DNA of 64,000 nt from Alphaproteobacteria bacterium (lineage in GTDB: Bacteria; Pseudomonadota; Alphaproteobacteria; TMED109): NCBI GenBank assembly GCA_021296265.1, contig JAGWAT010000011.1, positions 1-64,000 of the forward strand. Direction: 5' to 3'. The translations under genes were made by a program, and so were the position numbers. The first letter of the stretch is position 1, and each line of letters begins with the position of its first letter. Positions 47,218 through 64,000 of this stretch are shown here, in pieces. The notes beneath the pieces were generated by a model. That model had not been told where the DNA came from. It searched no databases and saw only the letters and a list, made by a program, of their open reading frames with translations.

Positions 47218-48831
47218 ATGCTCCGGATCCGGGACCTTGCTGTCCGGTTTCACACCGAAGACGGGCCGGTGGACGCGGTTCACGAGGTAGACCTGTCGCT
47301 GGCCCCCGGCGAAACGCTCGCGCTGGTCGGCGAATCGGGGTCGGGCAAGTCGGTCACGGCTCTCTCGGTGCTCGGCCTGCTGCCGTACCCGCGCGCGAGT
47401 CACCCGCGCGGCTCCATTCAACTGGACGATTCGGAACTGCTCGGCGCGCCGGAAGAGACCCTGCGCCGGATTCGCGGCAACGAGGTCTCGATGATCTTCC
47501 AGGAACCGATGACCTCGCTCAATCCCCTGCATACGGTCGTGCGGCAGGTTGTCGAGCCCCTCATGCTGCACCAGCAGCTCTCGCGCGAGGCGGCCCGGAG
47601 CGAGGCCCGGCGGCTGCTCGCTCGGGTTGGCCTCGGCCAGGCGGACGCCCGCATCGATGCCCACCCGCACCAGCTTTCCGGCGGCCAGCGACAGCGCGTC
47701 ATGATCGCCTGCGCCCTCGCCAATCGGCCAAAGTTCCTGATTGCCGATGAGCCGACGAGTGCTCTCGATGTCACGGTGCAGGAAGACATCCTCGCCCTCA
47801 TCTCCGAGCTTCAGCGCGAAACCGGCATGGGACTCCTGCTAATCACCCATGACCTCACGATCGTCCGGTCGGTGGCAGCCCGCACCGCCGTGATGCAGGC
47901 GGGGCGCATCGTGGAGACCGGTCTGACCGAAGACATCTTCCAGCGCCCCGAACACGCCTACACACGGAGCCTGCTGGCCAATCAGCCGGGTGCCCGAAAC
48001 CCCGCGGCGACCGCGGAGCCGGCGGGCAAGCCGCTGCTGGAGGCCCGGAACCTCCAGGTCCACTACCCGATCCGCAAGGGCATCCTGCGCCGCACCGTCG
48101 GGCACGTGAAGGCCGTCGACGGAATTGATCTCTCGCTCACCGCGGGCCGGACGCTCGGTGTGGTCGGGGAATCGGGTTGCGGGAAGACCACGCTGGGGCA
48201 GGCACTCCTGCGGCTCATTGCCAGCACCGGTTCGATCCGCTTCGAAGGGCAGGCGATCGATACGCTCGGCTGGAACGAGTTGCGGCCCCTGCGCTCGAAG
48301 ATGCAGTTCGTGTTCCAGGATCCGTATGGCGCGCTCTCGCCCAGGCTGTCGGTGTTCGGCATCGTGGCCGAAGGGCTGCTCCTCAACCGCATGGTGACAA
48401 GCACCGACGAGGCCCGAGAGCGAGTCACCACCGCTCTGGGCGAGGTCGGCCTTCCCGCCGACGTGATGGACCGCTATCCGCACGAGTTCTCCGGCGGCCA
48501 GCGACAGCGCATCTCCATCGCCAGGGCGCTGGCGCTCACGCCCAGCGTGCTGGTCCTCGACGAGCCAACCTCGGCACTCGACCTCTCGGTGCAGGCCCAG
48601 ATCGTGAATCTCCTCAACGCGCTGCAGGCGCGTCACCGACTCGCGTACCTCTTCATCAGCCATGATCTCCGGGTCGTGCGCGCCATGGCGGATGATCTCC
48701 TCGTCATGCGCTCCGGCCTGGCCGTCGAGCGGGGCCCCGCCGAAGAGGTGTTCCGTCACCCCACCACCGACTACACGAAACGGCTGCTGCGGGCCGCGCA
48801 ACTGGCACCGCCGGCGGAGAGCACCGCATGA
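47218..48831 (+). CDS. yejF: Dual ATP-binding protein YejF
   Basis: YejF fuses two ABC ATPases that power peptide import. The 537-residue protein has Walker A GESGSGKSV, signature LSGGQRQRVMI and Walker B LIADEPTS in the first half, and GESGCGKTT, FSGGQRQRISI and LVLDEPTS in the second. The ATG at 47218 has a GGAAAGG box upstream. Its stop overlaps the start of the next gene (ATGA). Confidence 0.93.
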   Translation: MLRIRDLAVRFHTEDGPVDAVHEVDLSLAPGETLALVGESGSGKSVTALSVLGLLPYPRASHPRGSIQLDDSELLGAPEETLRRIRGNEVSMIFQEPMTSLNPLHTVVRQVVEPLMLHQQLSREAARSEARRLLARVGLGQADARIDAHPHQLSGGQRQRVMIACALANRPKFLIADEPTSALDVTVQEDILALISELQRETGMGLLLITHDLTIVRSVAARTAVMQAGRIVETGLTEDIFQRPEHAYTRSLLANQPGARNPAATAEPAGKPLLEARNLQVHYPIRKGILRRTVGHVKAVDGIDLSLTAGRTLGVVGESGCGKTTLGQALLRLIASTGSIRFEGQAIDTLGWNELRPLRSKMQFVFQDPYGALSPRLSVFGIVAEGLLLNRMVTSTDEARERVTTALGEVGLPADVMDRYPHEFSGGQRQRISIARALALTPSVLVLDEPTSALDLSVQAQIVNLLNALQARHRLAYLFISHDLRVVRAMADDLLVMRSGLAVERGPAEEVFRHPTTDYTKRLLRAAQLAPPAESTA

Positions 48832-49775
48832 CCAGCCCAATCCCCGTGGCCTATTTCAGCGTCGACGATCCGGTCGAACCCTGGCGGAACCTCTGCCGCG
48901 AGCTGGCCCTCCCCGTGCAGCTCCGGGAATGGCCCGCCGAGATCGAGGACCCCGCGGCCATCGAGGCCGCGTTCGTGTGGCACGCGCCGCCCGCCATGTG
49001 GACGGATCTCCCAAACCTCCGGTTCGTGCAGACGATCGGCACCGGCGTCGACCACCTCCTCGCTCATCCTCCACCTGCCTCGGTCACGCTGGCGCGCACC
49101 GTCGACCCGACGCTCACCGAACAGATGGCGGAATACGCGGTCCTCGCCGTGCTCGCCTGTCACCGCAACCTCCACCACCATCTCCGGAACCAGAAACAGG
49201 GAGTCTGGGGGACGCCTCCGTATGCCGACACCGCCGAGACGCCGGTTGGCGTCATGGGTACCGGCGAGATCGGCGCGGCCATCCTCCAGCGGCTCCGGGC
49301 ATTCCAGTTTCCGCTTCGCGCCTGGTCCCGCACCGGGCGGACGGGCATCGATGGCGTGAACGGGTTTCGAGGGCTTGACGGTCTCGCGGCGTTTCTGGCC
49401 GGCTCCCGCATCCTCCTGTCCGTGCTGCCGGCGACTCCCGCCACGGACGGGCTGCTCGACGGCGAGCGGTTGCGGCAGCTACCGCGTGGCGCCCACGTCA
49501 TCAATCTCGGGCGCGGCAGCACCGTCGTGGAACCGGATCTCGAGGCGTGCCTGGCATCCGGCCACCTGGCCTCGTGCTTTCTCGACGTGTTCGCGGAGGA
49601 GCCCCTGCCGCCCAGCAGCCCGTTCTGGCAGCACCCGCAGGTCATCGTCACGCCGCACGCCGCCGGGGTGAACTTCGCGACTCCCTACGCCGCCCGGCTC
49701 CTGGCCGGTAATCTGGCGCGAGCACTGGCCGGCCGGCCGCCCCAGCACGGCATCTCGCACGCGCGCGGCTACTAA
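48828..49775 (+). CDS. D-2-hydroxyacid dehydrogenase (GhrA-like)
   Basis: The 315-residue protein resembles glyoxylate/hydroxypyruvate reductase A. It has the Rossmann motif GVMGTGEIGAAIL, the catalytic Arg in NLGRGSTV, the Glu in DVFAEEPLP and the His in VTPHAAG. Its ATG overlaps the yejF stop, so it may be read with the peptide importer, as is seen elsewhere. NADPH preference is likely from RSRT-type residues after strand 2 (AWSRTGRT). Confidence 0.85.
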   Translation: MTSPIPVAYFSVDDPVEPWRNLCRELALPVQLREWPAEIEDPAAIEAAFVWHAPPAMWTDLPNLRFVQTIGTGVDHLLAHPPPASVTLARTVDPTLTEQMAEYAVLAVLACHRNLHHHLRNQKQGVWGTPPYADTAETPVGVMGTGEIGAAILQRLRAFQFPLRAWSRTGRTGIDGVNGFRGLDGLAAFLAGSRILLSVLPATPATDGLLDGERLRQLPRGAHVINLGRGSTVVEPDLEACLASGHLASCFLDVFAEEPLPPSSPFWQHPQVIVTPHAAGVNFATPYAARLLAGNLARALAGRPPQHGISHARGY

Positions 49776-49792: not shown

Positions 49793-51040
49793 ATGACGCA
49801 CCCTGCGACGAGCGATTCCTACTACGACGACCGGGAGACGCGGAATCCCGCTGAACGCGAACGGGCGCAGTTTGAAACCCTGCGGACCGTCCTGCGCAAG
49901 GCGACAGACGATGCGCCGGCCTGGTCGGAGCGACTGGCCGGGGTCGACCCGGATGCCGTGACCAGCCGCGATGCACTGGCTGCCCTGCCCGTGTTGCGCA
50001 AGTCGGACCTGCCCCCGCTGCAGCGGACTGCGCCACCGTTCGGCGGTCTGGCCACCCGCCCGGCAGGGAGCTTTCGACACGTCTTCGCTTCACCCGGGCC
50101 CATCTACGAGCCCGGGCACACGGGCGACTTCTGGCGGATGGCCCGGGTCATGCACGCTGCCGGGTTCCGACCCGGCGATCTCGTCTACAACACGTTCTCG
50201 TACCACTTCACGCCAGCCGGCTTCATGATGGAACAAGGGGCGCACGCCATCGGCTGTGCCGTCTTTCCGGCCGGGATCGGGAACACCGACCTCCAACTCG
50301 AGACCGTCGCCTCCCTGCGCCCGAATCGGTACGCGGGGACGCCCTCCTTCCTGGGCATTCTGCTCAAGGAAGGCGACGCCCGCGGCCTCGACCTCTCCTC
50401 GTTTGAAAGCGGCATCGTTGGCGGCGAGGCGCTCACCGCGAGCCTCCGGGAACAGTTCAACGCCCGCGGCATCCGGGTCCTTCAGGGCTACGGCACCGCC
50501 GATGTCGGCCAGATCGCCTACGAGACGACACCGGGCGCCGGACTGGTGCTCGACGAGGACGTGATCGTCGAGCTGGTCGAACCCGGCGGCACCCAGCCGG
50601 TCGCCTCCGGAGAAATCGGGGAGGTGGTGGTCACCCTGCTCAATCCCGACTACCCGATGATCCGCTTCGGGACGGGCGATCTCTCGAAGTTCCTCGACGG
50701 CCCCAGTCCGTGCGGACGCACCGCGCCCAGGATTGCCGGATGGCTGGGACGCGCCGATCAGACGGCCAAGGTCCGCGGCATGTTCGTCCACCCCGGGCAG
50801 GTCCAGGAAATCGCGAAACGTCATCCCGGAATCGCGCGCCTGCGCCTGGTGATCGGGCGCGAGAATGATCGGGACACCGCTGTCCTCTCCGTCTGCACGG
50901 GCGAAGATTCCGTCTCGGTTGACGAGGTTGCGGAAACCGCGCGCGCCGCGCTCCGGGTTCGGGCTGAGGTCCGAATCGTCCCGGAGGACGCGCTACCGGA
51001 CGATGGTCGACACATCGAAGACACCCGCACGCATGCGTGA
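49793..51040 (+). CDS. PaaK-like ANL-superfamily protein without a canonical P-loop
   Basis: This 415-residue protein looks like phenylacetate-CoA ligase: the middle has VLQGYGTADVGQIAYE (the A5 motif) and the end has GRADQTAKVRGMFVHPGQVQ (the A8 motif). However the N-terminal TSGTTG-type P-loop is replaced by HVFASPGPIYEPGHTG, so adenylation may be lost or changed. A strong AGAAAGG box precedes the ATG. It sits between the GhrA-like gene and ccmA and is on the same strand, overlapping the ccmA start. The substrate is unknown. Confidence 0.72.
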   Translation: MTHPATSDSYYDDRETRNPAERERAQFETLRTVLRKATDDAPAWSERLAGVDPDAVTSRDALAALPVLRKSDLPPLQRTAPPFGGLATRPAGSFRHVFASPGPIYEPGHTGDFWRMARVMHAAGFRPGDLVYNTFSYHFTPAGFMMEQGAHAIGCAVFPAGIGNTDLQLETVASLRPNRYAGTPSFLGILLKEGDARGLDLSSFESGIVGGEALTASLREQFNARGIRVLQGYGTADVGQIAYETTPGAGLVLDEDVIVELVEPGGTQPVASGEIGEVVVTLLNPDYPMIRFGTGDLSKFLDGPSPCGRTAPRIAGWLGRADQTAKVRGMFVHPGQVQEIAKRHPGIARLRLVIGRENDRDTAVLSVCTGEDSVSVDEVAETARAALRVRAEVRIVPEDALPDDGRHIEDTRTHA

Positions 51041-51650
51041 AGCCTCCGGGGGGTGCGACGACGCCCTCGTGGTCCGCGGCCTTTCCTGTGAACGTGGCGA
51101 GAGGGGACTCTTTGCCGATGTTTCGTTCGTGGTCCCGGACGGCCATCTGCTGCTCGTGACCGGGCCGAACGGTTCCGGCAAGTCCTCGCTGCTCCGCATC
51201 CTGGCCGGCCTGATGGAGCCATCGGCGGGAAGTTACCGGCCGCCGGAGCGCGGAACCTTCGCCCGTTCCATCGGGTACCTCGGGCACGCGAACGCAGTGA
51301 AGATCCGCCTCAGCGTGCGGGAGAACCTGACCTTCTGGGCGCAGCTCGCTCGAGCCCAGAAAACTGTTGAGCCGATTCTCCAGCGTGTCGGACTGGGAGC
51401 TTTCATGGACCTGCCGGCGGGCTGGCTCTCCGCCGGGCAGCTCCGCCGCCTGGCGCTGTCCCGGATCCTGATCGGGGACGCGCGCCTCTGGCTCCTGGAC
51501 GAGCCTGCAGCCAACCTGGATTCCGCTGGAGAAGCCGTGCTCCAGGCGGAACTCACCCGCCACCGTGCCGCAGGCGGCAGCGCCGTTGTGACAGCGCCGA
51601 GCGACATCGAGATGGCGGACGCCCAGCGACTGGAACTGGCGGGCCGATGA
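51033..51650 (+). CDS. ccmA: Heme exporter ATP-binding protein CcmA
   Basis: CcmA is the ATPase of the CcmABCD complex that releases heme-loaded CcmE. The 205-residue protein has Walker A GPNGSGKSSLLR, the Q-loop region, signature LSAGQLRRLALSR, Walker B LWLLDEP and VVTAP where the H-loop His is usually found. The start at 51033 lies within the end of the preceding gene; an in-frame ATG at 51003 is possible. It overlaps ccmB by ATGA. Confidence 0.9.
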   Translation: MREASGGCDDALVVRGLSCERGERGLFADVSFVVPDGHLLLVTGPNGSGKSSLLRILAGLMEPSAGSYRPPERGTFARSIGYLGHANAVKIRLSVRENLTFWAQLARAQKTVEPILQRVGLGAFMDLPAGWLSAGQLRRLALSRILIGDARLWLLDEPAANLDSAGEAVLQAELTRHRAAGGSAVVTAPSDIEMADAQRLELAGR

Positions 51651-52312
51651 CGTTTCTTCGCGCCGTTGTGGAACGCGAGCTCAGGCTCTACATGCGCGGA
51701 GTCGTGGACCTCATCGGGGTGTGGATGTTCTTCGGAATCGCGATTGCCATGCTCCCGCTCAGCATCGGCCCCGATCCCGACATCCTGAGCCGCATCGCTC
51801 CGGGCGCGGCATGGGCCATCGCGCTGCTCGCCTCCATGCTGTCGCTGGAGCGCGTCTTCGCGCCGGATCAGCGGGACGGGTCGCTGGACCTGCTGCTGCT
51901 GCATGCCCCCAGCATCCCTCTTCTGATCCTGGCGAAGAGCCTCGCGCACTGGCTGGTTACCGGCCTCCCCTTCGTCGTCCTCGCCCCGCTCGCAGCCATT
52001 GCCCTCGGCATGGATGTCCAGGGCGTCTGGCCCCTTGCCGGCGCGCTGCTGATCGGAACCCCGGCGCTGTCGTTGATCGGCACGGTGGGCTCGGCGCTGA
52101 CCGCCCCGGTCCGGCGCGGCGGCATTCTTGCCGCGCTCATTGTTCTGCCCCAAACCATTCCCGTGCTAATTTTCGGCACCGCGGCCGTCAGCGAAACCCT
52201 CAAGGGACGTGACTCCGGACCATACTTCTCGGTACTCGGAGCTTTCACACTTGCTGCGGTGGCGCTCGCACCGTATGCAGGCAGTGCCGCCCTGCGGGCC
52301 GTCCGCAACTGA
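51647..52312 (+). CDS. ccmB: Heme exporter protein CcmB
   Basis: CcmB is the integral membrane partner of CcmA. The 221-residue protein has six hydrophobic segments and begins FLRAVVERELRLYMRG, with SLERVFAPDQRDGSLDLLLL, a well-conserved family segment. Its ATG overlaps the ccmA stop. ccmC starts 40 bp later. Confidence 0.9.
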   Translation: MTFLRAVVERELRLYMRGVVDLIGVWMFFGIAIAMLPLSIGPDPDILSRIAPGAAWAIALLASMLSLERVFAPDQRDGSLDLLLLHAPSIPLLILAKSLAHWLVTGLPFVVLAPLAAIALGMDVQGVWPLAGALLIGTPALSLIGTVGSALTAPVRRGGILAALIVLPQTIPVLIFGTAAVSETLKGRDSGPYFSVLGAFTLAAVALAPYAGSAALRAVRN

Positions 52313-53726: not shown

Positions 53727-53901
53727 AAACCATCACGCGTCGGACGGCCCACACCCGCAAACCGCCGAGTCCTTGCGTTCAGGCCCTACCTTCCCCGCAC
53801 AGACAAGGCACTCGAATCGCTGGTGAGGCCATTGCGCAGCTTGTCCGCGGCCGCACTTCCAGCGGCGGGTGCGTCCGCACCAGATTGAACGAACGGCAGG
53901 A

Positions 53902-54753
53902 TCAGGCCGGTTTCGATTGTCGCAACCACCGGGCCAGACCATGCCCCATGGTGACCATGCGCGCGACACCCCGCGGCCCGGCCACGTAGGTGGCGACCAT
54001 TTCGATTGCAGGGTCGGGAATCGCGCTGATGTCGCCCCGTAGATGGGCCAGTCGCGCGCCTTCAGCTTGCGATTGCGCAAAGACCTCTTGCATAGCGCGG
54101 TCGATGGTGCCATCCGATTGCGATGGCGCGAAGGCTTGATTGATCAACAGGAGCAGGCCGGGGTAGTGCGCGAGGTGGCGCCACAGGGTTGCCACACTGC
54201 GGGAGTTCGCACCTGCGCCAAAGCGATTGACCCGTTCCACTCGCATCCAGACGTCGAGAGCGATCTCGGATCTTTCGAGCAGGTGGGGTAGGTCCGGCAG
54301 GATCGGTGCCGCCGGCGGAACCGGATCGACCGGACTCGGGCCGACCGGCGATAGCACCAGGCCACTCAGCGCCATCATGTTGAGGCTGTTGGAACGGGTA
54401 TAGGCATCAATGATGCCGAGCGCGGCCCGCATCTCCTCGGCGCCGATGCCCGCGTCGGCCAATTGATCGGCCGCCAAGGGCGCCGGCACCGGAAACATGT
54501 CGGCACGCGATAGGCGGTCGAGCGCTGCCTCCGCCTGACCAGACAAATAAATCGGCTTGGTGGCCGCCCAGACCGTCGGCAGCCCCTCGTCGATGCTCAC
54601 CAGCGTGCGCCAAATCGAGGTCAGCAGCGGGATCTGCATGACATCGCGTATCTCGGCGAAGATGGCTGCCGTCGGGCCCGTCGCCATCTTCTCGGCGAGC
54701 GCCGTGACAGGATCCGTGCCGAGGCCTTCAGTCATGTGTGGTGTTGCGGTCAT
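53902..54753 (-). CDS. DehI-like 2-haloacid dehalogenase family protein
   Basis: The 283-residue alpha-helical protein has two similar repeats, one with SIWRTL (residues 47-51) followed by GLPTVWAATKPIYLSG and one with TLWRHL (190-194) followed by GLLLLINQAFAPS. This repeat layout and the N-terminal AIFAEIRDVMQIP resemble DehI (group I haloacid dehalogenase). I cannot match the catalytic Asp of DehI with certainty, so activity is unproven. The start at 54753 was chosen over an in-frame upstream extension with no homology; two Met (1 and 7) are available. Confidence 0.6.
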   Translation of the reverse strand: MTATPHMTEGLGTDPVTALAEKMATGPTAAIFAEIRDVMQIPLLTSIWRTLVSIDEGLPTVWAATKPIYLSGQAEAALDRLSRADMFPVPAPLAADQLADAGIGAEEMRAALGIIDAYTRSNSLNMMALSGLVLSPVGPSPVDPVPPAAPILPDLPHLLERSEIALDVWMRVERVNRFGAGANSRSVATLWRHLAHYPGLLLLINQAFAPSQSDGTIDRAMQEVFAQSQAEGARLAHLRGDISAIPDPAIEMVATYVAGPRGVARMVTMGHGLARWLRQSKPA

Positions 54754-55555
54754 GGGTTTTCCGTCATCTGGATGTTGTCCACGAGCGTAGGTGCGCCGTA
54801 GTCTCGGACGACCGTGCCCCTTCGCGCGCACTTGCTGAGCCGACGGAGCGGGGACCACGCAATCAAAGCCGCATTGCGGTAGATGTGGCCGTGTCCCCGC
54901 CATCGAAACAGGCAACAACCCGCTGGGATCATTCCGTGCGGTCGGATCCCGGCGCACCTTCCCCGGCCTACAGGTGGCTGCTTCGGCTGATCAGCCCCGA
55001 TCGATTGGTTCGGGCGCAATGTTAGTGCGCGACGGGTTGCGCGGCCAATCCGGCCAGGCGACGGAGCGCCAGGGGGCCGTGCCATGCTGCGGAACGGAAG
55101 CTCTGAGCGTCCACAACACCGGCGCCCGCTAGGCGTTGTATCGCTGGCACCCGTAGTTCGGCAGCCCGGTTCGCACTGAAGAGGTGGTGATGCGGGCAGG
55201 CGTAAGCGGTTTCGGCGCTGCATCCGGACCCGAGATGTGGCCGGCCACTATCGGGAGCGGCGCCTCTGGATGCTGGCTAGCGGGGCTTGCGCCCTGCGGC
55301 GTGGTGCATCGTGCTCAGATCGACGCGCGAGCGCGTTCTCGGCCCAGCTGTCGCTGGGGCGGCAGCAATTGACAAACATGGCGTGCATCGGGCGGTGGTG
55401 CAGCCGGCCTCCCGCCGAAACGTTGACGGCGGGGGCTACTGGGCCCTCGCACCAACTCCCAAGCTTGCTTGCGTGGGAAGACGCCTGCCGGGAGAAAGGT
55501 CTTGAGAATGGCCGGCAACCAGCGGGCCTCCCTTGGCCCCAGAACCCGACCGCTC
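54754..55555. other. Gene-free stretch of about 800 bp
   Basis: I found no supported gene. Open frames exist on both strands but lack ribosome-binding sites, homology and a protein-like composition. The region may hold a degraded gene, but I recognise no fragment. It separates the DehI-like gene from the ornithine cyclodeaminase-like gene, both on the minus strand, so these are probably separate transcripts. Confidence 0.5.
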
Positions 55556-56470
55556 CTATCGCATAAGGTTGTATGCAAGCTCGGCGGCAGCAGCGTCCAT
55601 GACTGCCACTCCGACCGAATCATAGATGACGGTGGCGCCAGACGGCACCTGCCGCACCCCGAGATACACCTCTCCGACCTCGGCAAAGATCTCGCAGCCT
55701 GAACCCCGAACGTTGCCAGACTGATCCAGGGCAGCTTCACGCGATTCCACGACGACGGTGTGACTCATGGCCGCATCATCGAGTTCTCGGCCGTCGGGGG
55801 TGTTCCACCCGACCGCCGCGACGAAAGCGCCCGGCTTCAACCAGTCCCCCATCAAGATGGGTTCCTTGGCCGCCGTGGTACAGGCCACGATGTCGGCACC
55901 CCGCACGGCACGCTCTGCATCGTCCACGAAAATCGCCCCCACCGCCTCCGCGGCGGCGCGTCCGGAAGCTTCGGTCCGCGCCCATAGCCGAAGTTCCCCG
56001 CAGGGGCGGACGAGGGCCAATGCCCGGGCATGGGCGCGGGCCTGGACACCGCTCCCCATGATCGTCACCACTTCTGGCGTCGGAACCGAAAGCGCACGGG
56101 CTGCCGCGGCCGACGCCGCCGCTGTCCGCATCTCGGTGATCAACCGCCCGTCAAGCGTCGCGATGGGCGCGCCGTTTCCCTTGTCGAACAGGAGGATGAC
56201 CGCCTGGTGGGTGGGAACATCCGTGCCGGCATTGCTGTGGTAGAACGTCACCACCTTTACGGCGATCGCACTCCCGGCGGCGGGCATGGTGCCGAGAAAG
56301 GCGTCTTGCCCCGGAACCGGCACCATCTGGCGGAGCGGCTGCGCCACCTGCCCAGACGACAGCGCACCCATTGCCTTCTCGATTTCATCGATCAGGGGTT
56401 CCCATGCCAAGACACGCGCGACTGCGGCCTCGTTGAAGAACGGCAATTCCTCCAAGCCTCGATGGGTCAA
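55556..56470 (-). CDS. Ornithine cyclodeaminase/mu-crystallin family protein
   Basis: The 304-residue protein belongs to a family that includes ornithine cyclodeaminase, alanine dehydrogenase and ketimine reductases. It has the FLGTMPAAGSAIAVKVVTF substrate region with the conserved Lys, TAAASAAAARALS, the Rossmann motif IMGSGVQARAHARA and DIVACTTAAKEPIL. I use a TTG start at 56470 because AAGGGA lies 7 bp upstream; an in-frame start at 56536 is possible but adds residues without homology. It is upstream of a large gene-free stretch and shares its strand with the ArsI-like gene. Confidence 0.82.
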   Translation of the reverse strand: MTHRGLEELPFFNEAAVARVLAWEPLIDEIEKAMGALSSGQVAQPLRQMVPVPGQDAFLGTMPAAGSAIAVKVVTFYHSNAGTDVPTHQAVILLFDKGNGAPIATLDGRLITEMRTAAASAAAARALSVPTPEVVTIMGSGVQARAHARALALVRPCGELRLWARTEASGRAAAEAVGAIFVDDAERAVRGADIVACTTAAKEPILMGDWLKPGAFVAAVGWNTPDGRELDDAAMSHTVVVESREAALDQSGNVRGSGCEIFAEVGEVYLGVRQVPSGATVIYDSVGVAVMDAAAAELAYNLMR

Positions 56471-56617
56471 TTCATTTCCCTTCGCAGTCGGCCGTCGCCA
56501 CCGTGAGGGTGCGCGGCGGGGCCATCCGGACCGCAAGGCAGGCTGACTGGCCCGAGAATCGGTGCCCCGCTTATCCTATTCCCCTACGCTGCCGCCAACA
56601 GCGCATCGCGTGGCAAC

Positions 56618-57073
56618 TCATTTCGCTTCGACGGAGGGGGGCATGCCGCAGCAACCATCCTCGGCGTCATCCGATGGAGCGTGGAGCGGGTTGGTATCGG
56701 CGCCGTACCAGGCAATGTCGTCATGCGTGTGGAACACTTCCCACCGCACTCCCACGGGATCTAATGACCAAGCCTTGTCTGACTTGCTGTAGCAGCATTC
56801 TGCCGACGGTTGCTCGATCAGCGGTGCCTCTGCCCGAGCCAGTTGCTTTGTCATCCCCTCCAGTTCCGCATCGTCATCGACCTGAATTCCGAGGTGGTCC
56901 ACGCCTTCCCTGCAGCCCCGTGAATCCAGGACAAAATTCACACGCGGGTCCTCCAGCATCCACTTCGCGTAACCGGGCTTCCTGACAGTCGGTTCCGCAT
57001 CAAACAGCGTCGTGTAGAACTCGACCGAATGCTCAAGGTCCGTGACCCCGACGGATACGTGAAGGCGTTTCAT
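56618..57073 (-). CDS. ArsI/CadI-family VOC metalloenzyme
   Basis: The 151-residue vicinal-oxygen-chelate protein matches the ArsI/CadI family: ArsI is an Fe(II) dioxygenase that cleaves the C-As bond of trivalent organoarsenicals, while CadI is a cadmium-induced homologue. Likely metal ligands are His5, His60 in VDHLGIQVD and Glu112 in WEVFHT, and the vicinal Cys93-Cys94 in ECCYSKSDKAW fits the substrate-binding pair of ArsI. A second pair, Cys141-Cys142, lies near the C terminus. A GGAAAGG box precedes the ATG at 57073. No arsR, arsC or arsM is next to it. Confidence 0.82.
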   Translation of the reverse strand: MKRLHVSVGVTDLEHSVEFYTTLFDAEPTVRKPGYAKWMLEDPRVNFVLDSRGCREGVDHLGIQVDDDAELEGMTKQLARAEAPLIEQPSAECCYSKSDKAWSLDPVGVRWEVFHTHDDIAWYGADTNPLHAPSDDAEDGCCGMPPSVEAK

Positions 57074-57472
57074 GGGTTGACCTTTCCAGTCCACCGACTT
57101 GCAGTGATTGCTCTTGTTCCCGAGCAACATCATGTGGTGCCCACACCTGATGCTGTCAATCGCCAAAGTCTCGTCTGACGCGAGCCCGTCCCTGATCGTG
57201 GCCGGCGGAACCGCGCGGTAACGGTAAGTCCCCGGCGGGGATAGGCGACCACAGCCACCGGATCATCATACCTCCGGCGCCGAACCACAAACGCCTTGGC
57301 GCTCGGTCAGACCAGCGCTCCATCACACTGAGTTGGGCCTGTGCGTTCACGCAGCCGCACCCGGCTGCCCCTGCTTCCCTCCCGAAGTAGTTCGCTCGTC
57401 AAGACACGGAACCAATTGGCCTTCCGCGCCGGTACTGGTGTACTGCGGCAACGCTCACACATGACGCGCAGG
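57074..57472. other. Gene-free stretch between ArsI-like and porin-like genes
   Basis: No supported gene, repeat or terminator is seen in this 399-bp gap. It should carry the promoter of the ArsI-like gene on the minus strand. Confidence 0.5.
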
Positions 57473-58471
57473 TCACAGCGGGACTTTGAAGCCGATTGAA
57501 ATTGCCCAATAGCTGGGCCCTGGCACCGACACGCCGTAGTAGACGGGCGCGCCGCCCGGCTCGACCGTGGACTCGTGCCCGCGCAATGGTCGCCACGCGT
57601 GCCCGTCATCGAGGAATTCGTCCAACATCCGCCCGTAACGCAGTTTCCCGGTCACGATCCGTCCACTCCTCAGAGCGTAATCCACCCCCAGGATCAGCTG
57701 ATACCCCCATAGCCAGTCCGACACGTTCGCGTCAGCCCGGGACACCTTGTTGGCTGCATCGGGATGCCGAGGCGGGTCCAGCGCCAGCAGGGCAGCTACA
57801 CCGCGGCGAATCGAGGTGGCCGAATAGCCGAACTCAACCCGCGACGTCCCCACTCCCACGCCGACAAATGGCTTCAACGCCAATTCGCCGAAGCTTGAAA
57901 AATCGTAATAAAAGTTGGCGAAGAGGCTATTAGTGTGGAACTCCCCTATTTCCTCTTCACGAACGGAGAACTCTTTCTGCTTGGGATCACCGGGGACCAC
58001 CAGGTCCACCTTGTCCCCGCCGCGGCGATGATGGATGTATTCGACCTCAAAACGATACGGCCCGGTACCAAAGTAACCGACGTGGATGCCAGCCAGTACC
58101 CCGCCATTCAGTTCGAATTCGTTCGCGCTTGACGGAAGCTCTCTCGGTTGACACTGATCTGCAGGCAACGGCAGCTGTTGCCCATCTATGACCACGGGTT
58201 CGAACCATTGGTCGCAATTTGTCGGAATGCCATGATGGGTCCGGGTGGACCGGAGCGTGGTCGCCGCAGAGATACCTACGTCAATGCCTGCATAGAACCC
58301 CGGGCGGCGCTCATCCCCCACCGCCGAAGGCACCAACACAAAGGCTGACAACAGAATACCCAGGCCGAAAGGGAGTATCGCACGAGCCCTAGGTCGCAGC
58401 GCGTTGTGCCGCCGGCGACTTCTTGTGCTGACCGAAGGCCCGCCGATTTCTGCGATTCGCGGGATCGCCAA
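57473..58471 (-). CDS. Outer-membrane beta-barrel (Opa/P44-like) protein
   Basis: The 332-residue protein probably forms an 8-stranded outer-membrane beta-barrel. It has an N-terminal signal (residues 31-56, core FGLGILLSAFVLVPSAVG), alternating hydrophobic strands such as GPYRFEVEYIHH, FANFYYDFS and LKPFVGVGVG, and ends in SYWAISIGFKVPL with a C-terminal hydrophobic strand. The start is a TTG at 58471 with GGGAGG 6 bp upstream; a long open frame upstream reaches into the next gene without homology. The 30 residues before the signal are unusual. Extracellular loops hold cysteines (in NCDQW and QCQPR). Confidence 0.7.
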   Translation of the reverse strand: MAIPRIAEIGGPSVSTRSRRRHNALRPRARAILPFGLGILLSAFVLVPSAVGDERRPGFYAGIDVGISAATTLRSTRTHHGIPTNCDQWFEPVVIDGQQLPLPADQCQPRELPSSANEFELNGGVLAGIHVGYFGTGPYRFEVEYIHHRRGGDKVDLVVPGDPKQKEFSVREEEIGEFHTNSLFANFYYDFSSFGELALKPFVGVGVGTSRVEFGYSATSIRRGVAALLALDPPRHPDAANKVSRADANVSDWLWGYQLILGVDYALRSGRIVTGKLRYGRMLDEFLDDGHAWRPLRGHESTVEPGGAPVYYGVSVPGPSYWAISIGFKVPL

Positions 58472-58551
58472 GTTCAGCCTCCCTTTGCAATTGGCGTCAT
58501 CATGCCGGTCGTACCGTCCGCCTGATTGCCCGCTACCGTCCCGACCCGCCG

Positions 58552-59574
58552 CTACTCCGGCCGGCGGGCATGGATCAGCCGGGTCATTCCCGGCACCATC
58601 TCCTCGTCCCGGGGCATGGTGAAGCCGATCTCGACCAGGCGGCCTTTCAACCAGCCAGGCGTGACCGACCGCGCTTCCGGCGTGAAGGCCATGTGTTGCA
58701 ATTGCCATAGCGCCGCCATCGGCGGCCCGGTGCGATCGTCCTCCACCATGAAATCATGGACGATGAGATGGCCGCCCGGAGCGAGGCAGTCGTATGCCTG
58801 CTGCACCAGCCGGGGCAGTTCGCCCCCGGGAACGCCGCTGAAGAGGTAGGACATGAGGATCGCGTCCTGCTCCGTCGGCCATTCGGTCTCCAGTGCATTG
58901 GCGGGGATGTAGCGCACCCGATCCACCATCCCGGCTTCGGCAATGAAGCGCCAGCCGATCTCGGCAACGTTCGGGAAGTCGATGATGGTCGAGACCAGGT
59001 CGGGAAACGTCTCCAGCAGCTGGATGGTCATGCTGCCCGTGCCGCCGCCGACATCCAGCAGGTTGCGGCAGCCCGAAAGGTCGATCAGCCGCGCCAGGGT
59101 GCGACCGGGCCCGAGTGAGCCAGCATGCTGCGCCTCACTGTAGAGCGTGGCCTGCTCCGGGTCGGACATCCAGTGCTGATAGCTGTCCACCGCCTCCGGG
59201 CCCAGCGAACCATCGAGCACTTCATTCAGTTGCGTGAGGAACGGGTACATCTGCTGGTCGATCTGGTAGCGCAGGTAATCCCCAAAATCGTGCCGGGCGC
59301 CACGCACCAGGAAGTCTGTCGCGCCCGGCGCGTTGAAATAGTTTTCGTCCTCGCGGTTCACGAGGCCGATTGCGGTCAGGGCGGTCATCAGCGTCGTCAT
59401 CCGGTTGACCGGGACGCTTGTCTTCTGGGCGAGCGTCCGCGCCGTCTTCGGTCCATCGGCGAGCTGGCTAAAGACATCGACATGCAGCGCCGCAAAGAGC
59501 GCCTTGGAAGCCATGAAGCCAAAAGCCAGCCGCGATACGTCCTCGGCCGTTTCGGCTAATCGTTCCGCCATCAT
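58552..59574 (-). CDS. SAM-dependent O-methyltransferase (acetylserotonin/CrtF-like)
   Basis: The 340-residue protein has an N-terminal winged-helix dimerisation domain (about 1-95) and a C-terminal methyltransferase fold with the SAM motif LLDVGGGTGSMTIQLL, YIPANALETEWP, and the LAPGGHLIVHDFMVEDD segment. This matches the O-methyltransferase family 2 (hydroxyneurosporene, acetylserotonin and polyketide methyltransferases). The ATG at 59574 is one of two adjacent. It faces the AT-rich 59575-60328 stretch; the substrate is unknown. Confidence 0.85.
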   Translation of the reverse strand: MMAERLAETAEDVSRLAFGFMASKALFAALHVDVFSQLADGPKTARTLAQKTSVPVNRMTTLMTALTAIGLVNREDENYFNAPGATDFLVRGARHDFGDYLRYQIDQQMYPFLTQLNEVLDGSLGPEAVDSYQHWMSDPEQATLYSEAQHAGSLGPGRTLARLIDLSGCRNLLDVGGGTGSMTIQLLETFPDLVSTIIDFPNVAEIGWRFIAEAGMVDRVRYIPANALETEWPTEQDAILMSYLFSGVPGGELPRLVQQAYDCLAPGGHLIVHDFMVEDDRTGPPMAALWQLQHMAFTPEARSVTPGWLKGRLVEIGFTMPRDEEMVPGMTRLIHARRPE

Positions 59575-59985
59575 AAATAACTCCTCGGATCCGGATATTT
59601 GCTGAACTCAATAACTTGGCACGGGACCGGCAAATTTTCAAATGCGGGAAAATGTTCGATTTGGGTTACGCGGTTTATCTTCCCTTTATCTATGATGGTG
59701 TTTCTCAAGAGTCGTAATGGCAAATCCTGAATTCGCGCTATCCTCAAAAAAAGTAGCCATCATTTCCAAGACGCTGTATTCCAGAAAGCTCACGCAGCGG
59801 CAGGTTATGTCTTCAGAGTAAACACAGATATGAATTGTACGGCTGGGCATCACTGTCCTATGATGATTGGAAAAACCTAGCTCACTTCACATTTCTGTCC
59901 TCCAAATACAAACGACCTGATCCAAGGCACAGATAACCGGGTAGTTCAAGACATATTAGAATAATCCACTGGCAGGAGGTTCGGA

Positions 59986-60147
59986 TTGTGCCTCGGACTG
60001 AGTAGTCCTTGTGACAGTGTGCACGCACGCTGTCCATCGGCGCACGAAGCTCGCATCCCGACGGGAAGGCGCTTCGTGGACACTATTGGTTACACAGATG
60101 ACGTACTAACGTGCGGAAATAGTGCCGTGACCGGAAAAATACGGTGA
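59986..60147 (+). CDS. Possible small ORF (53 aa) with strong ribosome-binding site
   Basis: A TTG at 59986 has a perfect AGGAGG at 59974-59979, 6 bp upstream, and opens a 53-codon frame ending TGA at 60145. The product would be Cys-containing and soluble, with no recognised family. The frame overlaps two inverted repeats, so the sequence may be shaped by RNA structure rather than coding. TTG start and lack of homology keep confidence low. Confidence 0.2.
   Translation: MCLGLSSPCDSVHARCPSAHEARIPTGRRFVDTIGYTDDVLTCGNSAVTGKIR
60013..60034. promoter_or_regulatory. Near-perfect 22-bp palindrome
   Basis: GACAGTGTGC at 60013-60022 and GCACGCTGTC at 60025-60034 match at nine of ten positions with a 2-bp centre. 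It is about 300 bp upstream of the TfdA-like gene, and looks like an operator for a dimeric regulator or the stem of a small hairpin. Confidence 0.4.
60043..60078. other. Inverted repeat / nested hairpin
   Basis: CACGAAGC at 60043-60050 pairs with GCTTCGTG at 60071-60078. The 20-nt loop holds TCCCG-A-CGGGA, a second small stem. A further outer pair, TGTCCA at 60031-60036 and TGGACA at 60077-60082, could extend the structure. There is no T-run, so it is not a typical terminator. Confidence 0.4.
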
Positions 60148-60254
60148 CCGCAACCAAATTGTTTGGTGGAATCACCCGGAAACCATCATCGGGTATCTGT
60201 GGTCGGCTTTTCCGGCTCAGTCGCATTTGTTTTGCACCGTTCGATCAAGGATTC

Positions 60255-60263
60255 TGGTATATT
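60255..60263 (+). promoter_or_regulatory. Extended -10 element upstream of the TfdA-like gene
   Basis: TG-G-TATATT at 60255-60263 fits an extended -10 element and would start transcription about 60270, 59 bp before the ATG. I see no strong -35 at 17 bp, which extended -10 promoters do not need. Confidence 0.4.
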
Positions 60264-60328
60264 TGTAGTTACGGAACGCGTTTGCAGCGGCAAATTCATC
60301 GTCTTTCCGCGCGCCGTCAAGAGGATGT

Positions 60329-61198
60329 ATGAGCATGTTCAGTGTGGAACCGCTGCACCCTGAATTCGGTGCACGAATTTCCGGGATGGACATGCACTTC
60401 CCGCTGACCATGGACCAGGTCAAGAACGTCCATGACCTGATCGACCGCTATTCGTTTCTTTGCTTTCAAGATCAATCGTTCAATGACGCTCGTCAGCTTG
60501 CGCTGACCTGCTGCCTGGGGGAGCCGGAAGAGAATCACGTCACCTTGGGGCAGCGTGGCGTGATCAGTTATTTCGGGACCATCGGGAACGTCCGGGAGGA
60601 TGGCAGCAAGCTGGGCAACCGTGACAAGCATGTCGTCTTCTCGACTGGCAACAACATGTGGCACACGGATTCCTCGTTTCGCCCAGTGCCATCCTACGTG
60701 TCCATCATGTGCGTGTACGAAGTGCCCGATGAGGGAGGCCACACCGAGTTCGTGAGTGCCCGCAGCGCGTATGAGCGTCTTCCCGACGCTCTCAAGACCG
60801 AGATCGAGCCGCTGACCGTGATCCACGACTACGTGTTCTCCCGCAGCAAGGTGAGCCCTGATGCCGTCACCCCGTCCCACGCGGCCTCCCTGCCCCCGGT
60901 TCGGCAACGGCTCGTGCGGACCAATCCCCGAACCGGTGCGAGGAACTACTACGTGGGATCCCACGCAAAGACCGTCGAGGGCTGGGAGGAACCGGATAGC
61001 CGTCGCCTGCTGGATGACCTGCTTGCCCGTGCAGTAGGCGAAGATCACATCTACCCCCACGCCTGGCAGCCCGGAGAGCTCGTGATCTGGGACAACCGCA
61101 CCCTTCTGCACCGCGGCACCGGCTATGACGCCGACTGCTATCGCCGGTACATGCGTCAGACCCGCGTGCGGGGTATCTCGACGCTGGAAGAAATGTGA
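60329..61198 (+). CDS. TauD/TfdA-family 2-oxoglutarate-dependent dioxygenase
   Basis: The 289-residue enzyme belongs to the family of taurine and 2,4-D dioxygenases that use Fe(II) and 2-oxoglutarate to hydroxylate a substrate. The iron ligands are His112 and Asp114 in MWHTDSSF and His261 in LLHRGTG; Arg272 or Arg276 should bind 2-oxoglutarate. The N terminus EPLHPEFGARISGMDMHFPL is typical of TfdA. The ATG at 60329 follows AGAGGATGT. It stands alone before parE. The TfdA-like call is by overall features; the natural substrate is not known. Confidence 0.85.
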   Translation: MSMFSVEPLHPEFGARISGMDMHFPLTMDQVKNVHDLIDRYSFLCFQDQSFNDARQLALTCCLGEPEENHVTLGQRGVISYFGTIGNVREDGSKLGNRDKHVVFSTGNNMWHTDSSFRPVPSYVSIMCVYEVPDEGGHTEFVSARSAYERLPDALKTEIEPLTVIHDYVFSRSKVSPDAVTPSHAASLPPVRQRLVRTNPRTGARNYYVGSHAKTVEGWEEPDSRRLLDDLLARAVGEDHIYPHAWQPGELVIWDNRTLLHRGTGYDADCYRRYMRQTRVRGISTLEEM

Positions 61199-61407
61199 TC
61201 GCGGTGAGAAGCAACCCATGACGCCGGCGGGTTCAGTCGTCTAGTGCGATCTCCAGCCGTCTGTGCCAGCTGTCGATCAGCACGCATATCAGGCCCGTGT
61301 GATTGCGCGAACGTTGGGCCGGGTCGAATTGGCGTTGGACGACCCGTGATTTCCCAACTCGCGTCGTGCCACCCCTTGCAGATCCCTAACCCTCGGACCG
61401 AAGGTCA

Positions 61408-63341
61408 GTGAAGAACGCCGACTACACAGCTTCCAGCATCGAAATCCTCAAGGGCCTAGAGGCCGTTCGGAAACATCCGGGCATGTACGTGGGCGGGACC
61501 GGCGAGACAGCCATGCATCACCTCGCCGCCGAGATTCTTGACAACGCGATCGACGAAGCCCTCGCCGGGCACGCCAGCCAGATCGGTATCACGCTCGAGA
61601 CCGGGAACGTCCTGACCATCAGCGATGACGGGCGGGGAATCCCCGTGGAACCGCATCCGGAAATGCCCGAAATGTCGGGGGTCGAGGTTGCGAGCACGCT
61701 CCTGCATGCCGGCGGCAAATTCGGAGAAACTGCGTACCGGACTTCCGGGGGGCTTCACGGGGTTGGGCTCTCCGTGGTCAACGCCCTCTCATCGGAACTG
61801 ACAGTCGAGGTCGCGCGGAATGGTGCGCGCTGGAGTCAGTCCTACCGCCGCGGGGTTCCCCAGGGACAACTCGCGGAAATAGGGAAAGCGGGCCGCCGCA
61901 CCGGTACCCGGGTCCGCTTCACGCCCGACCGCGAAATCTTCGAAGCTGGCACCGTGCTGCAGCCGTCCCTGCTCTTCGCCATGGCCCGGGACAAGGCGCG
62001 CCTCGTATCGTCGATCACGATCATGTGGCGTTGCGACCCCCTTCTGATCGAAGCTGACACCGACCTACCGGCCTCCACACTGCTTCACTTTCCGGGCGGT
62101 TTGCGCGACGCGGTCGAGGAAAGCACCCGCGGTGCGCCGACCATCACGGCCGAACCCTTCGCGGGCAGCACGGAACTCGCGGCGGGCGGACGCGTCGAAT
62201 GGGCGGTCGTCTGGCCGGAGCACAGTGACGGGGCCGTCCACAGCTGGTGCAACACCATCCCGACCCCACAGGGCGGCACGCATGAGGCGGGGCTCCGCGC
62301 GGCACTCACCCGCGGCACTCGCTCGTACGGTGATCTCGTCAAGCACAAGCGCGCCGGTGACATCACGGCGGATGATGTCTGCGGCGCCACCCGAATGGCC
62401 CTGTCCGTCTTCATCAGCGCTCCGCAATTTCAGGGGCAGACCAAGGAGAAGCTCACCACGACGGCCACCCGCCAGCACGTGGAAAGCGCCGTCCGAAATG
62501 CCTTCGAGCACTGGCTTGCGAATGATCCGAAGACCGCCAACACGCTCCTGGAACACTGCGTCCAGCGACTGGAGGAGCGTCTGCGGCGCAAGCTGGACAA
62601 ACACCTCCCGCGCGCGACCCCGGCGCGGCGACTGCGACTGCCAGGCAAGCTCGCCGACTGCACCCGCACGTCGGCCGAAGGCACCGAACTCTTCATCGTC
62701 GAGGGCGATTCTGCCGGCGGTTCCGCCAAGCAGGCCCGCTCGCGCGAGACCCAGGCGGTACTGGCGCTCAGGGGCAAGATCCTCAACGTCGCGAGCGCCA
62801 GTGCCGACAAGCTCCGCAACAACCAAGAACTCAGCAATCTGGTCCGGGCCCTGGGCTGCGGAACCGGCGAATCGTGTGATCTTGGACAACTTCGGTATGA
62901 CCGGGTTATCATCATGACGGACGCCGATGTGGACGGCGCTCACATCGCCTCCCTGCTTCTCACGTTCTTTTTTTCCGAAATGCGCCCGCTCGTGGAAGAC
63001 GGTCGCCTGTATCTCGCCCAGCCGCCGCTCTATCGCATCGCGCAGGCAGGCAATACGCGGTACGCGCGTGACGATGATCACCGAAACGAATTGCTCAAGG
63101 ATATTTTTGATGCATCAAAGAAAGTCGACATCAGTCGCTTCAAAGGTCTGGGCGAAATGCCCGCCGCGCAGTTGCGGAGCACCACCATGGATCCGGAAGT
63201 GCGAACGTTGATTCAGGTAAAGCTCCCCAGCGACGAGCGAGAAAGCGCCGATCTGCTGGTCCGGGACGTCATGGGACGAAACCCGGAGAAGCGTCTCGCC
63301 TACATTCGCGCCCGGGCTCCGCAGGCCGTGGGCCTCGACCT

Positions 63342-63345
<4 letters not shown>
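61408..63345 (+). CDS. parE: DNA topoisomerase IV subunit B
   Basis: ParE is the ATPase subunit of topoisomerase IV, which unlinks daughter chromosomes. The 645-residue protein has the GHKL ATPase domain ([38 protein letters not shown]), then the transducer and TOPRIM domains with the motifs [15 protein letters not shown] and the acidic [10 protein letters not shown]. The [19 protein letters not shown] motif fits ParE/GyrB. GTG start at 61408 after GGTCA. The short length and lack of the long GyrB insert favour ParE. The downstream helicase start overlaps its stop. Confidence 0.9.

Positions 63346-64000
<655 letters not shown>

Follow-up and report, generated by a model that had tools for sequence, protein, structure and literature searches.

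What can a protein do that has the fold of an adenylate-forming ligase without the P-loop of that fold? The question is raised by an intact reading frame at 49793..51040 (forward strand) of the window, by which is meant the whole 64,000-nucleotide stretch of alphaproteobacterial DNA that was analysed. Its product, 415 amino acids long, has the PaaK fold and belongs to the ANL superfamily; it is hereafter termed the SPG protein after the turn found at the place of the P-loop. Public plasmid records label its relatives as AMP-binding protein or phenylacetate-CoA ligase, and no description of the family or of its SPG motif was found in the literature searched, most of which lay outside subscription papers. 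ANL ligases are characterised by their P-loop, and several mutations in it leave little or no activity; either many genes bearing these two annotations have another function, or adenylation can run without a P-loop.

A PaaK-fold clade without the canonical P-loop

The solved proteins closest to the SPG protein are PaaK-type ligases (E-values of 5e-39 to 4e-34), and the 2-hydroxyisobutyryl-CoA ligase HCL is also among its solved relatives (E-value 2e-31). The Pfam AMP-binding profile (PF00501) places it in the ANL superfamily with 48.2 bits against a curated cut-off of 29.9, the match covering residues 122-280 only, i.e. behind the place of the P-loop; the same profile matched all 41 members of the family alignment. 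An AlphaFold2 model built from 41 family members (mean pLDDT 90) has the ANL N-terminal domain fold, superposing on chains of PaaK2, HCL and BT_0428 at 2.1-2.4 Å over 309-319 residues with a Z-score of about 34, in a comparison that rests on re-examined Foldseek matches. The structural comparison with PaaK proposed in a preliminary description of this DNA thus bore out the PaaK fold. The PaaK equivalog model TIGR02155, however, gave 121.1 bits against a cut-off of 646.3, and the SPG protein is a member of the ANL fold family that fails two tests of PaaK, namely the P-loop and the equivalog cut-off. Elsewhere in the window genome, L002 (G000:C21:85851-86897) encodes a distant protein of PaaK type (28% identity) whose P-loop is the normal TSGTTG.

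At the P-loop place the protein reads SPGPIYEP (residues 100-107, 50090..50113, forward strand). Where PaaK-type rows of the alignment have SSGTTGKPT or a near variant, rows of the SPG family have SPGPIYEPG or a near variant, with Ser100, Pro101 and Gly102 invariant in 145/145 rows, that of the window included. Of these rows, 58 came from searches of whole genomes, 80 from named loci and seven from plasmid loci. The named loci, on which many counts below rest, are the best 80 of at least 590 candidate loci; they were found with two patterns holding His138, Asp322, Gln323 and their neighbours, so that invariance at those positions is partly circular, and the SPG segment was part of neither pattern. 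One locus with an in-frame TGA (L021) was excluded from the alignments, whilst two pairs of loci from the same two genomes (L019/L036 and L025/L037) were all counted. From Ser100 to residue 122 (Ala122 in the window) the family rows span 23-25 residues, compared with 31 in all 14 PaaK-type rows, which were taken from genomes of the same class; the loop is therefore shortened, by 6-8 residues, as well as substituted. In the model, the predicted strands flanking the turn are retained (residues 96-100 and 104-108).

Regular expressions for the ANL P-loop and the Walker A motif matched nowhere in any of the 145 family proteins, including that of the window, and the looser ANL pattern matched 22 of 24 P-loop-bearing control rows; a P-loop relocated to another part of the protein was not found. 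The canonical P-loop is almost certainly absent throughout the family. The preliminary description had claimed its replacement by the Pro-rich segment, had called for the conservation of that segment to be checked, and had named a functional P-loop elsewhere in the protein as the finding that would overturn the claim; the replacement stands, and the SPG core of the segment is conserved throughout.

The phylogeny was inferred with a quick tree of 76 proteins, without bootstrap and with the P-loop columns included. The 53 rows of the SPG family fell on one side of a branch with an SH-aLRT value of 93, and with three sister rows bearing SPGPIFEP added they made up a single group (99), separate from PaaK, the HCL-like proteins and the other groups that have a P-loop; a single origin of the P-loop loss would be the simplest reading of this topology. 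As to phylogenetic spread, which had also been left to be examined, the SPG protein is one member of a conserved clade and not a lone odd homologue. A match (E-value of at most 1e-20) was present in 25 of the 28 genomes of the same taxonomic order, and the family was found in 84 of 289 genomes of the same class (those with at least 300 bits, plus G106 with two fragments) and at no fewer than 590 candidate loci overall. Among seven copies from the genus of the window, all of them open, dN/dS ranged from 0.07 to 0.22, indicating purifying selection. A shorter relative (L197, G062:C36:115350-116252) has an open frame of 331 amino acids, about 39% identity and the turn HRGLTL, and seems to be without most of the C-terminal domain.

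Members of the sister clade occurred in one of the 289 same-class genomes and in 39 plasmid records, 28 of which are of Pseudosulfitobacter or Sulfitobacter. Three of its neighbourhoods contain acyl-CoA dehydrogenases, hydratases and CoA-transferases, with thiolases in two of the three. At L212 (1-33134 of a Sagittula sp. P11 plasmid), L209 and L210, the gene lies in plasmid-borne clusters of beta-oxidation type with CoA-transferases; it is the sole candidate for an ATP-dependent CoA ligase among the annotated genes of L212 (33 kb), the gene tables of these plasmids being incomplete.

Retained and altered active-site residues

The preliminary description had also stated that motifs A5 and A8 are kept. 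This was confirmed, with a change in A5: the variant QGYGTADVG (residues 231-239, 50483..50509, forward strand) reads YGTAD for YGLSE, and of the 145 rows 122 have Asp as the acid and 23 have Glu. The A8 hinge GRADQTAKVRG (residues 319-329, 50747..50779, forward strand) and the A7 segment TGD (residues 294-296, 50672..50680, forward strand) conform to the patterns Rx(D/K)x6G, through R320, D322 and G329, and (S/T)GD, respectively. Both Arg320 and the ribose-binding Asp296 are invariant (145/145), and residue 322 is Asp in 138 rows and Glu in seven.

Two positions set the family apart from PaaK. His138 (50204..50206, forward strand), which is Gly in PaaK-type rows, and Pro141 are invariant in the family and common to the three sister rows; His138 was present in 58/58 rows from the whole-genome searches and in 145/145 overall, the latter count being partly circular for the 80 named rows. 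A His or an aromatic residue is also common hereabouts in other ANL proteins. The A4 row of the motif table in PMC8388817 likewise lists such residues.

A further feature, absent from the preliminary description, is the A10-like segment DGRHIEDTR (residues 404-412, 51002..51028, forward strand), in which the window protein has Arg406 where most relatives have Lys (Lys in 104/145, other residues in 41/145). Residue 406 is the sole candidate for the A10 Lys, which the window protein lacks. By motif it is likely to be the equivalent of the PaaK lysine, whilst in the alignment this equivalence is uncertain. Within the taxonomic family of the window, Lys occurs in none of 26 rows, being replaced by Arg, Leu or Ile (Arg in 7/7 same-genus rows), as opposed to 104 of 119 rows elsewhere, and on the tree, with its 53 family rows, the trait requires at least eight changes. 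Taken together, the pattern of residues suggests a protein that may bind something like AMP or acyl-AMP and alternate between domain positions, and that would not hold pyrophosphate in the usual way.

Gene neighbourhood and linkage to LIV-FadD modules

In the window, the SPG gene follows a 2-hydroxyacid dehydrogenase gene (48828..49775, forward strand; PF02826) and its stop overlaps a ccmA-like ABC ATPase gene (51033..51650, forward strand; PF00005), by 8 nt if the latter starts at ATG 51033 or by 38 nt if at ATG 51003, as read from the sequence. Next come ccmB (51647..52312, forward strand; PF03379), ccmC and ccmE. The gene context given previously, between a yej/ghrA series and the ccm genes with an overlap into ccmA, was upheld by Pfam for the dehydrogenase, the ABC ATPase, CcmB and CcmE and by the overlap itself, and ccmC takes its name from gene order and homology clustering. 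CcmF is encoded about 17 kb past ccmE and beyond the window end (G000:C58:70809-72557), the part of this interval within the window being 53727-64000, and in several relatives ccmF directly follows ccmE. Two long reading frames, 53905-54957 and 57476-58708 (both reverse strand), had no Pfam match at an E-value of at most 1e-5.

As a guide to function, this context proved misleading. Among the named loci (the best 80 of at least 590), ccmA is directly downstream in only six, including those of Sneathiella and a Geminicoccaceae MAG, compared with a liv-type ATPase directly upstream in 63; within the window's own taxonomic family ccmA follows in 16/16 examined loci, seven of which keep the upstream liv genes. 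The gene order usual in relatives is FadD-like ligase, ATPase, two permeases, binding protein, ATPase and then the SPG gene. A liv or FadD-like gene lies within eight open reading frames in 68 of the best 80 loci (FadD-like in 53), and in three the SPG gene is the first of the stretch. Names such as livATP, livH and livM rest on the gene order and plasmid annotation of the homology clusters that bear them, and other ABC ATPases may be included in the livATP cluster.

In the genus of the window, yej-like and ghrA-like genes occupy the place of the relatives' liv genes, and the SPG gene is not at the end of a LIV-FadD cluster. In the window genome the cluster is instead found on contig C10 as a separate six-gene module (L172, 4889-12326), with identities to the family references of 61% (FadD-like), 69% (ATPases), 66% and 70% (permeases) and 52% (binding protein); no SPG gene was present in the stretch fetched around it. 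Five loci (L070, L078, L106, L126 and L171, the last from G290) have liv-FadD genes, the SPG gene and ccmA in one series, which suggests how the gene came to adjoin ccm. Its ccm neighbourhood is probably positional.

The FadD-like neighbours of SPG genes have an intact P-loop in 69/69 cases, as does the FadD-like protein of the C10 module. A FadD-like gene at an E-value of at most 1e-150 was found in 63 of the 289 same-class genomes, and 63/63 also have the SPG gene; for the other 21 SPG genomes, 18 have a FadD-like gene at 1e-70 or below, where some matches may be other ligases, and three have none at this threshold (G052, G253 and G256). Shared ancestry inflates these co-occurrence counts. 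Twelve named loci had no liv genes in the fetched stretch, and all six of the genomes tested from among these carry a FadD-like gene (best identity 47-56%). A seemingly conserved in-frame TGA in second FadD-like matches of the window genus proved, in the two copies translated, to be the natural stop codon, where the alignment ends.

A functional link between the SPG protein and the LIV-FadD module is thus highly probable. The solved homologues of the binding protein (4ru0, 3eaf and 3lkb) bear generic names only, and none named a substrate for the transporter. On a plasmid of Xanthobacter autotrophicus Py2 (L151, 5394-17856), the SPG gene stands between a cobalamin-dependent acyl-CoA mutase operon and LIV-FadD genes, a setting suggestive of short branched or hydroxy acids as the substrates at this locus. 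PMC5876002 describes Castellaniella transposon insertions with an effect on growth, located within a LivH gene and a short way upstream of a gene for a phenylacetate-CoA ligase; these could not be tied to the SPG family.

Proposed function, rival readings and known systems

We propose, with a probability of about 0.5, that the SPG protein has lost ATP-dependent adenylation and acts as an accessory to carboxylate uptake, in a module that pairs a LIV-type ABC transporter with a FadD-like CoA ligase. The transporter would import an acid, the FadD-like ligase would activate it to a CoA thioester, and the SPG protein would bind AMP, acyl-AMP or acyl-CoA through the kept site (D296, R320 and H138) and hinge. 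It might then sense the bound ligand or hand it on, a step that we put forward tentatively. In the genus of the window the module lies elsewhere, and the SPG gene would have stayed beside ccm.

Judged from its residues, ordinary ATP-driven ligase activity has probably been lost. This is favoured by the lack of any P-loop or Walker A match in 145 rows and the loop 6-8 residues shorter, given the severe P-loop mutations tabulated in PMC8388817 (Gly163, 1,000-fold; Thr161, 2,000-fold; Pro168, no activity), and by the instability of residue 406. The link to the module draws on the liv ATPase upstream in 63 of the best 80 loci (from at least 590), the P-loop of the FadD-like neighbours, the 63/63 co-occurrence and the module kept on C10; a kept function is favoured by the invariance of Asp296 and Arg320 and by purifying selection in the window genus. 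Against the accessory role, most nucleotide-site residues, the A5 acid and, outside the window's taxonomic family, Lys406 (104/119) are kept, which fits a working adenylating enzyme too; mild P-loop mutations in the same table (Lys169, 4-fold; Gly166, 14-fold) and the three genomes without a FadD-like gene also count against it. The sister clade has the same turn, yet its clusters are of beta-oxidation type and have no FadD-like ligase annotated, which indicates that a LIV-only role is not the whole story.

The strongest rival, though a doubtful one, is that the SPG protein continues to use ATP for acyl- or aryl-CoA ligation, the phosphates being held otherwise by the shorter SPG turn. Its fold is that of PaaK; Asp296, Arg320, the hinge and the A5 acid are kept in 145/145 rows (Asp and Glu counted alike at the hinge and A5), and its best argument is Lys406, found in 104/145 rows and in most members outside the window's taxonomic family. 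Nonetheless, 41/145 have replaced that lysine, the loop has lost 6-8 residues, and the neighbourhood usually includes a gene for a complete ligase with a P-loop. According to PMC8388817, Ser94, Thr96 and Thr97 of PaaK1 bind the ATP phosphates, and these Ser and Thr residues are mostly gone here. An ATP-independent CoA-thioester enzyme, in which acyl transfer, exchange or hydrolysis would rely on His138 and the retained AMP/CoA sites, is unlikely. The family-specific His138 and Pro141, common to the three sister rows, speak for it, and it best fits the sister clade with its acyl-CoA dehydrogenases, hydratases, thiolases and CoA-transferases; the conserved ribose and A8 residues, however, point to a nucleotide ligand, and His138 need not be a new catalyst, since other ANL proteins have a similar residue nearby.

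Had the LIV module moved away in the window genus and left the gene to decay, this would explain the separation of gene and module and Arg406 in all seven same-genus rows, but such a relic is disfavoured as very improbable by the seven open copies under purifying selection (dN/dS 0.07-0.22) and by the match in 25/28 genomes of the order. Least probable of all is a part in cytochrome c maturation beside ccmABCE, suggested by the overlapping frames and by ccmA downstream in 16/16 loci of the window's taxonomic family and 6/80 named loci, since in the best 80 of at least 590 loci 74 are without ccmA directly downstream, 68 have liv or FadD-like genes within eight frames, and relatives mostly have liv, not ccm, genes beside the SPG gene.

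The accessory role remains our preferred reading. The preliminary description had suggested a new reaction or a non-catalytic role, and this is partly supported, being the view preferred here as well. More speculatively, an ancient ANL subfamily might serve without adenylation as an acyl- or AMP-responsive switch or thioester hand-off that couples a LIV importer to CoA activation, the sister clade on roseobacter plasmids using the same protein in CoA-ester catabolism.

With PaaK (PaaK1, 2Y27/2Y4N; PaaK2, 2Y4O; TIGR02155), the SPG protein has in common its fold (N-terminal domain at 2.4 Å over 309 residues against 2y4o_B), A7, A8 and size; unlike PaaK, it has no P-loop, a shorter loop, His138 and Pro141 for the Gly and Thr of PaaK, and an A10-like Arg. 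HCL (6HDW-6HE2) shares the fold (Z-score of about 35) and the region of the conserved Gln77, whereas HCL-like rows have TSGTTG and group apart on the tree. The 'phenylacetate--CoA ligase family protein' of Roseobacter plasmids (L209 and L210) belongs to one clade with the SPG family and shares His138, TGD and the turn, as SPGPIFEP, but differs in its identity of 35-38%, in having no GK at the A10-like place and in its beta-oxidation-type context. Closest are the proteobacterial 'AMP-binding protein' or 'phenylacetate-CoA ligase' entries at the ends of LIV clusters, such as that of Azospirillum ramasamyi (WP_111068462.1), which is of the same family with 53% identity and the SPG turn; these relatives usually lie in a six-gene LIV-FadD cluster, whereas the window gene is separated from its cluster and has Arg at residue 406.
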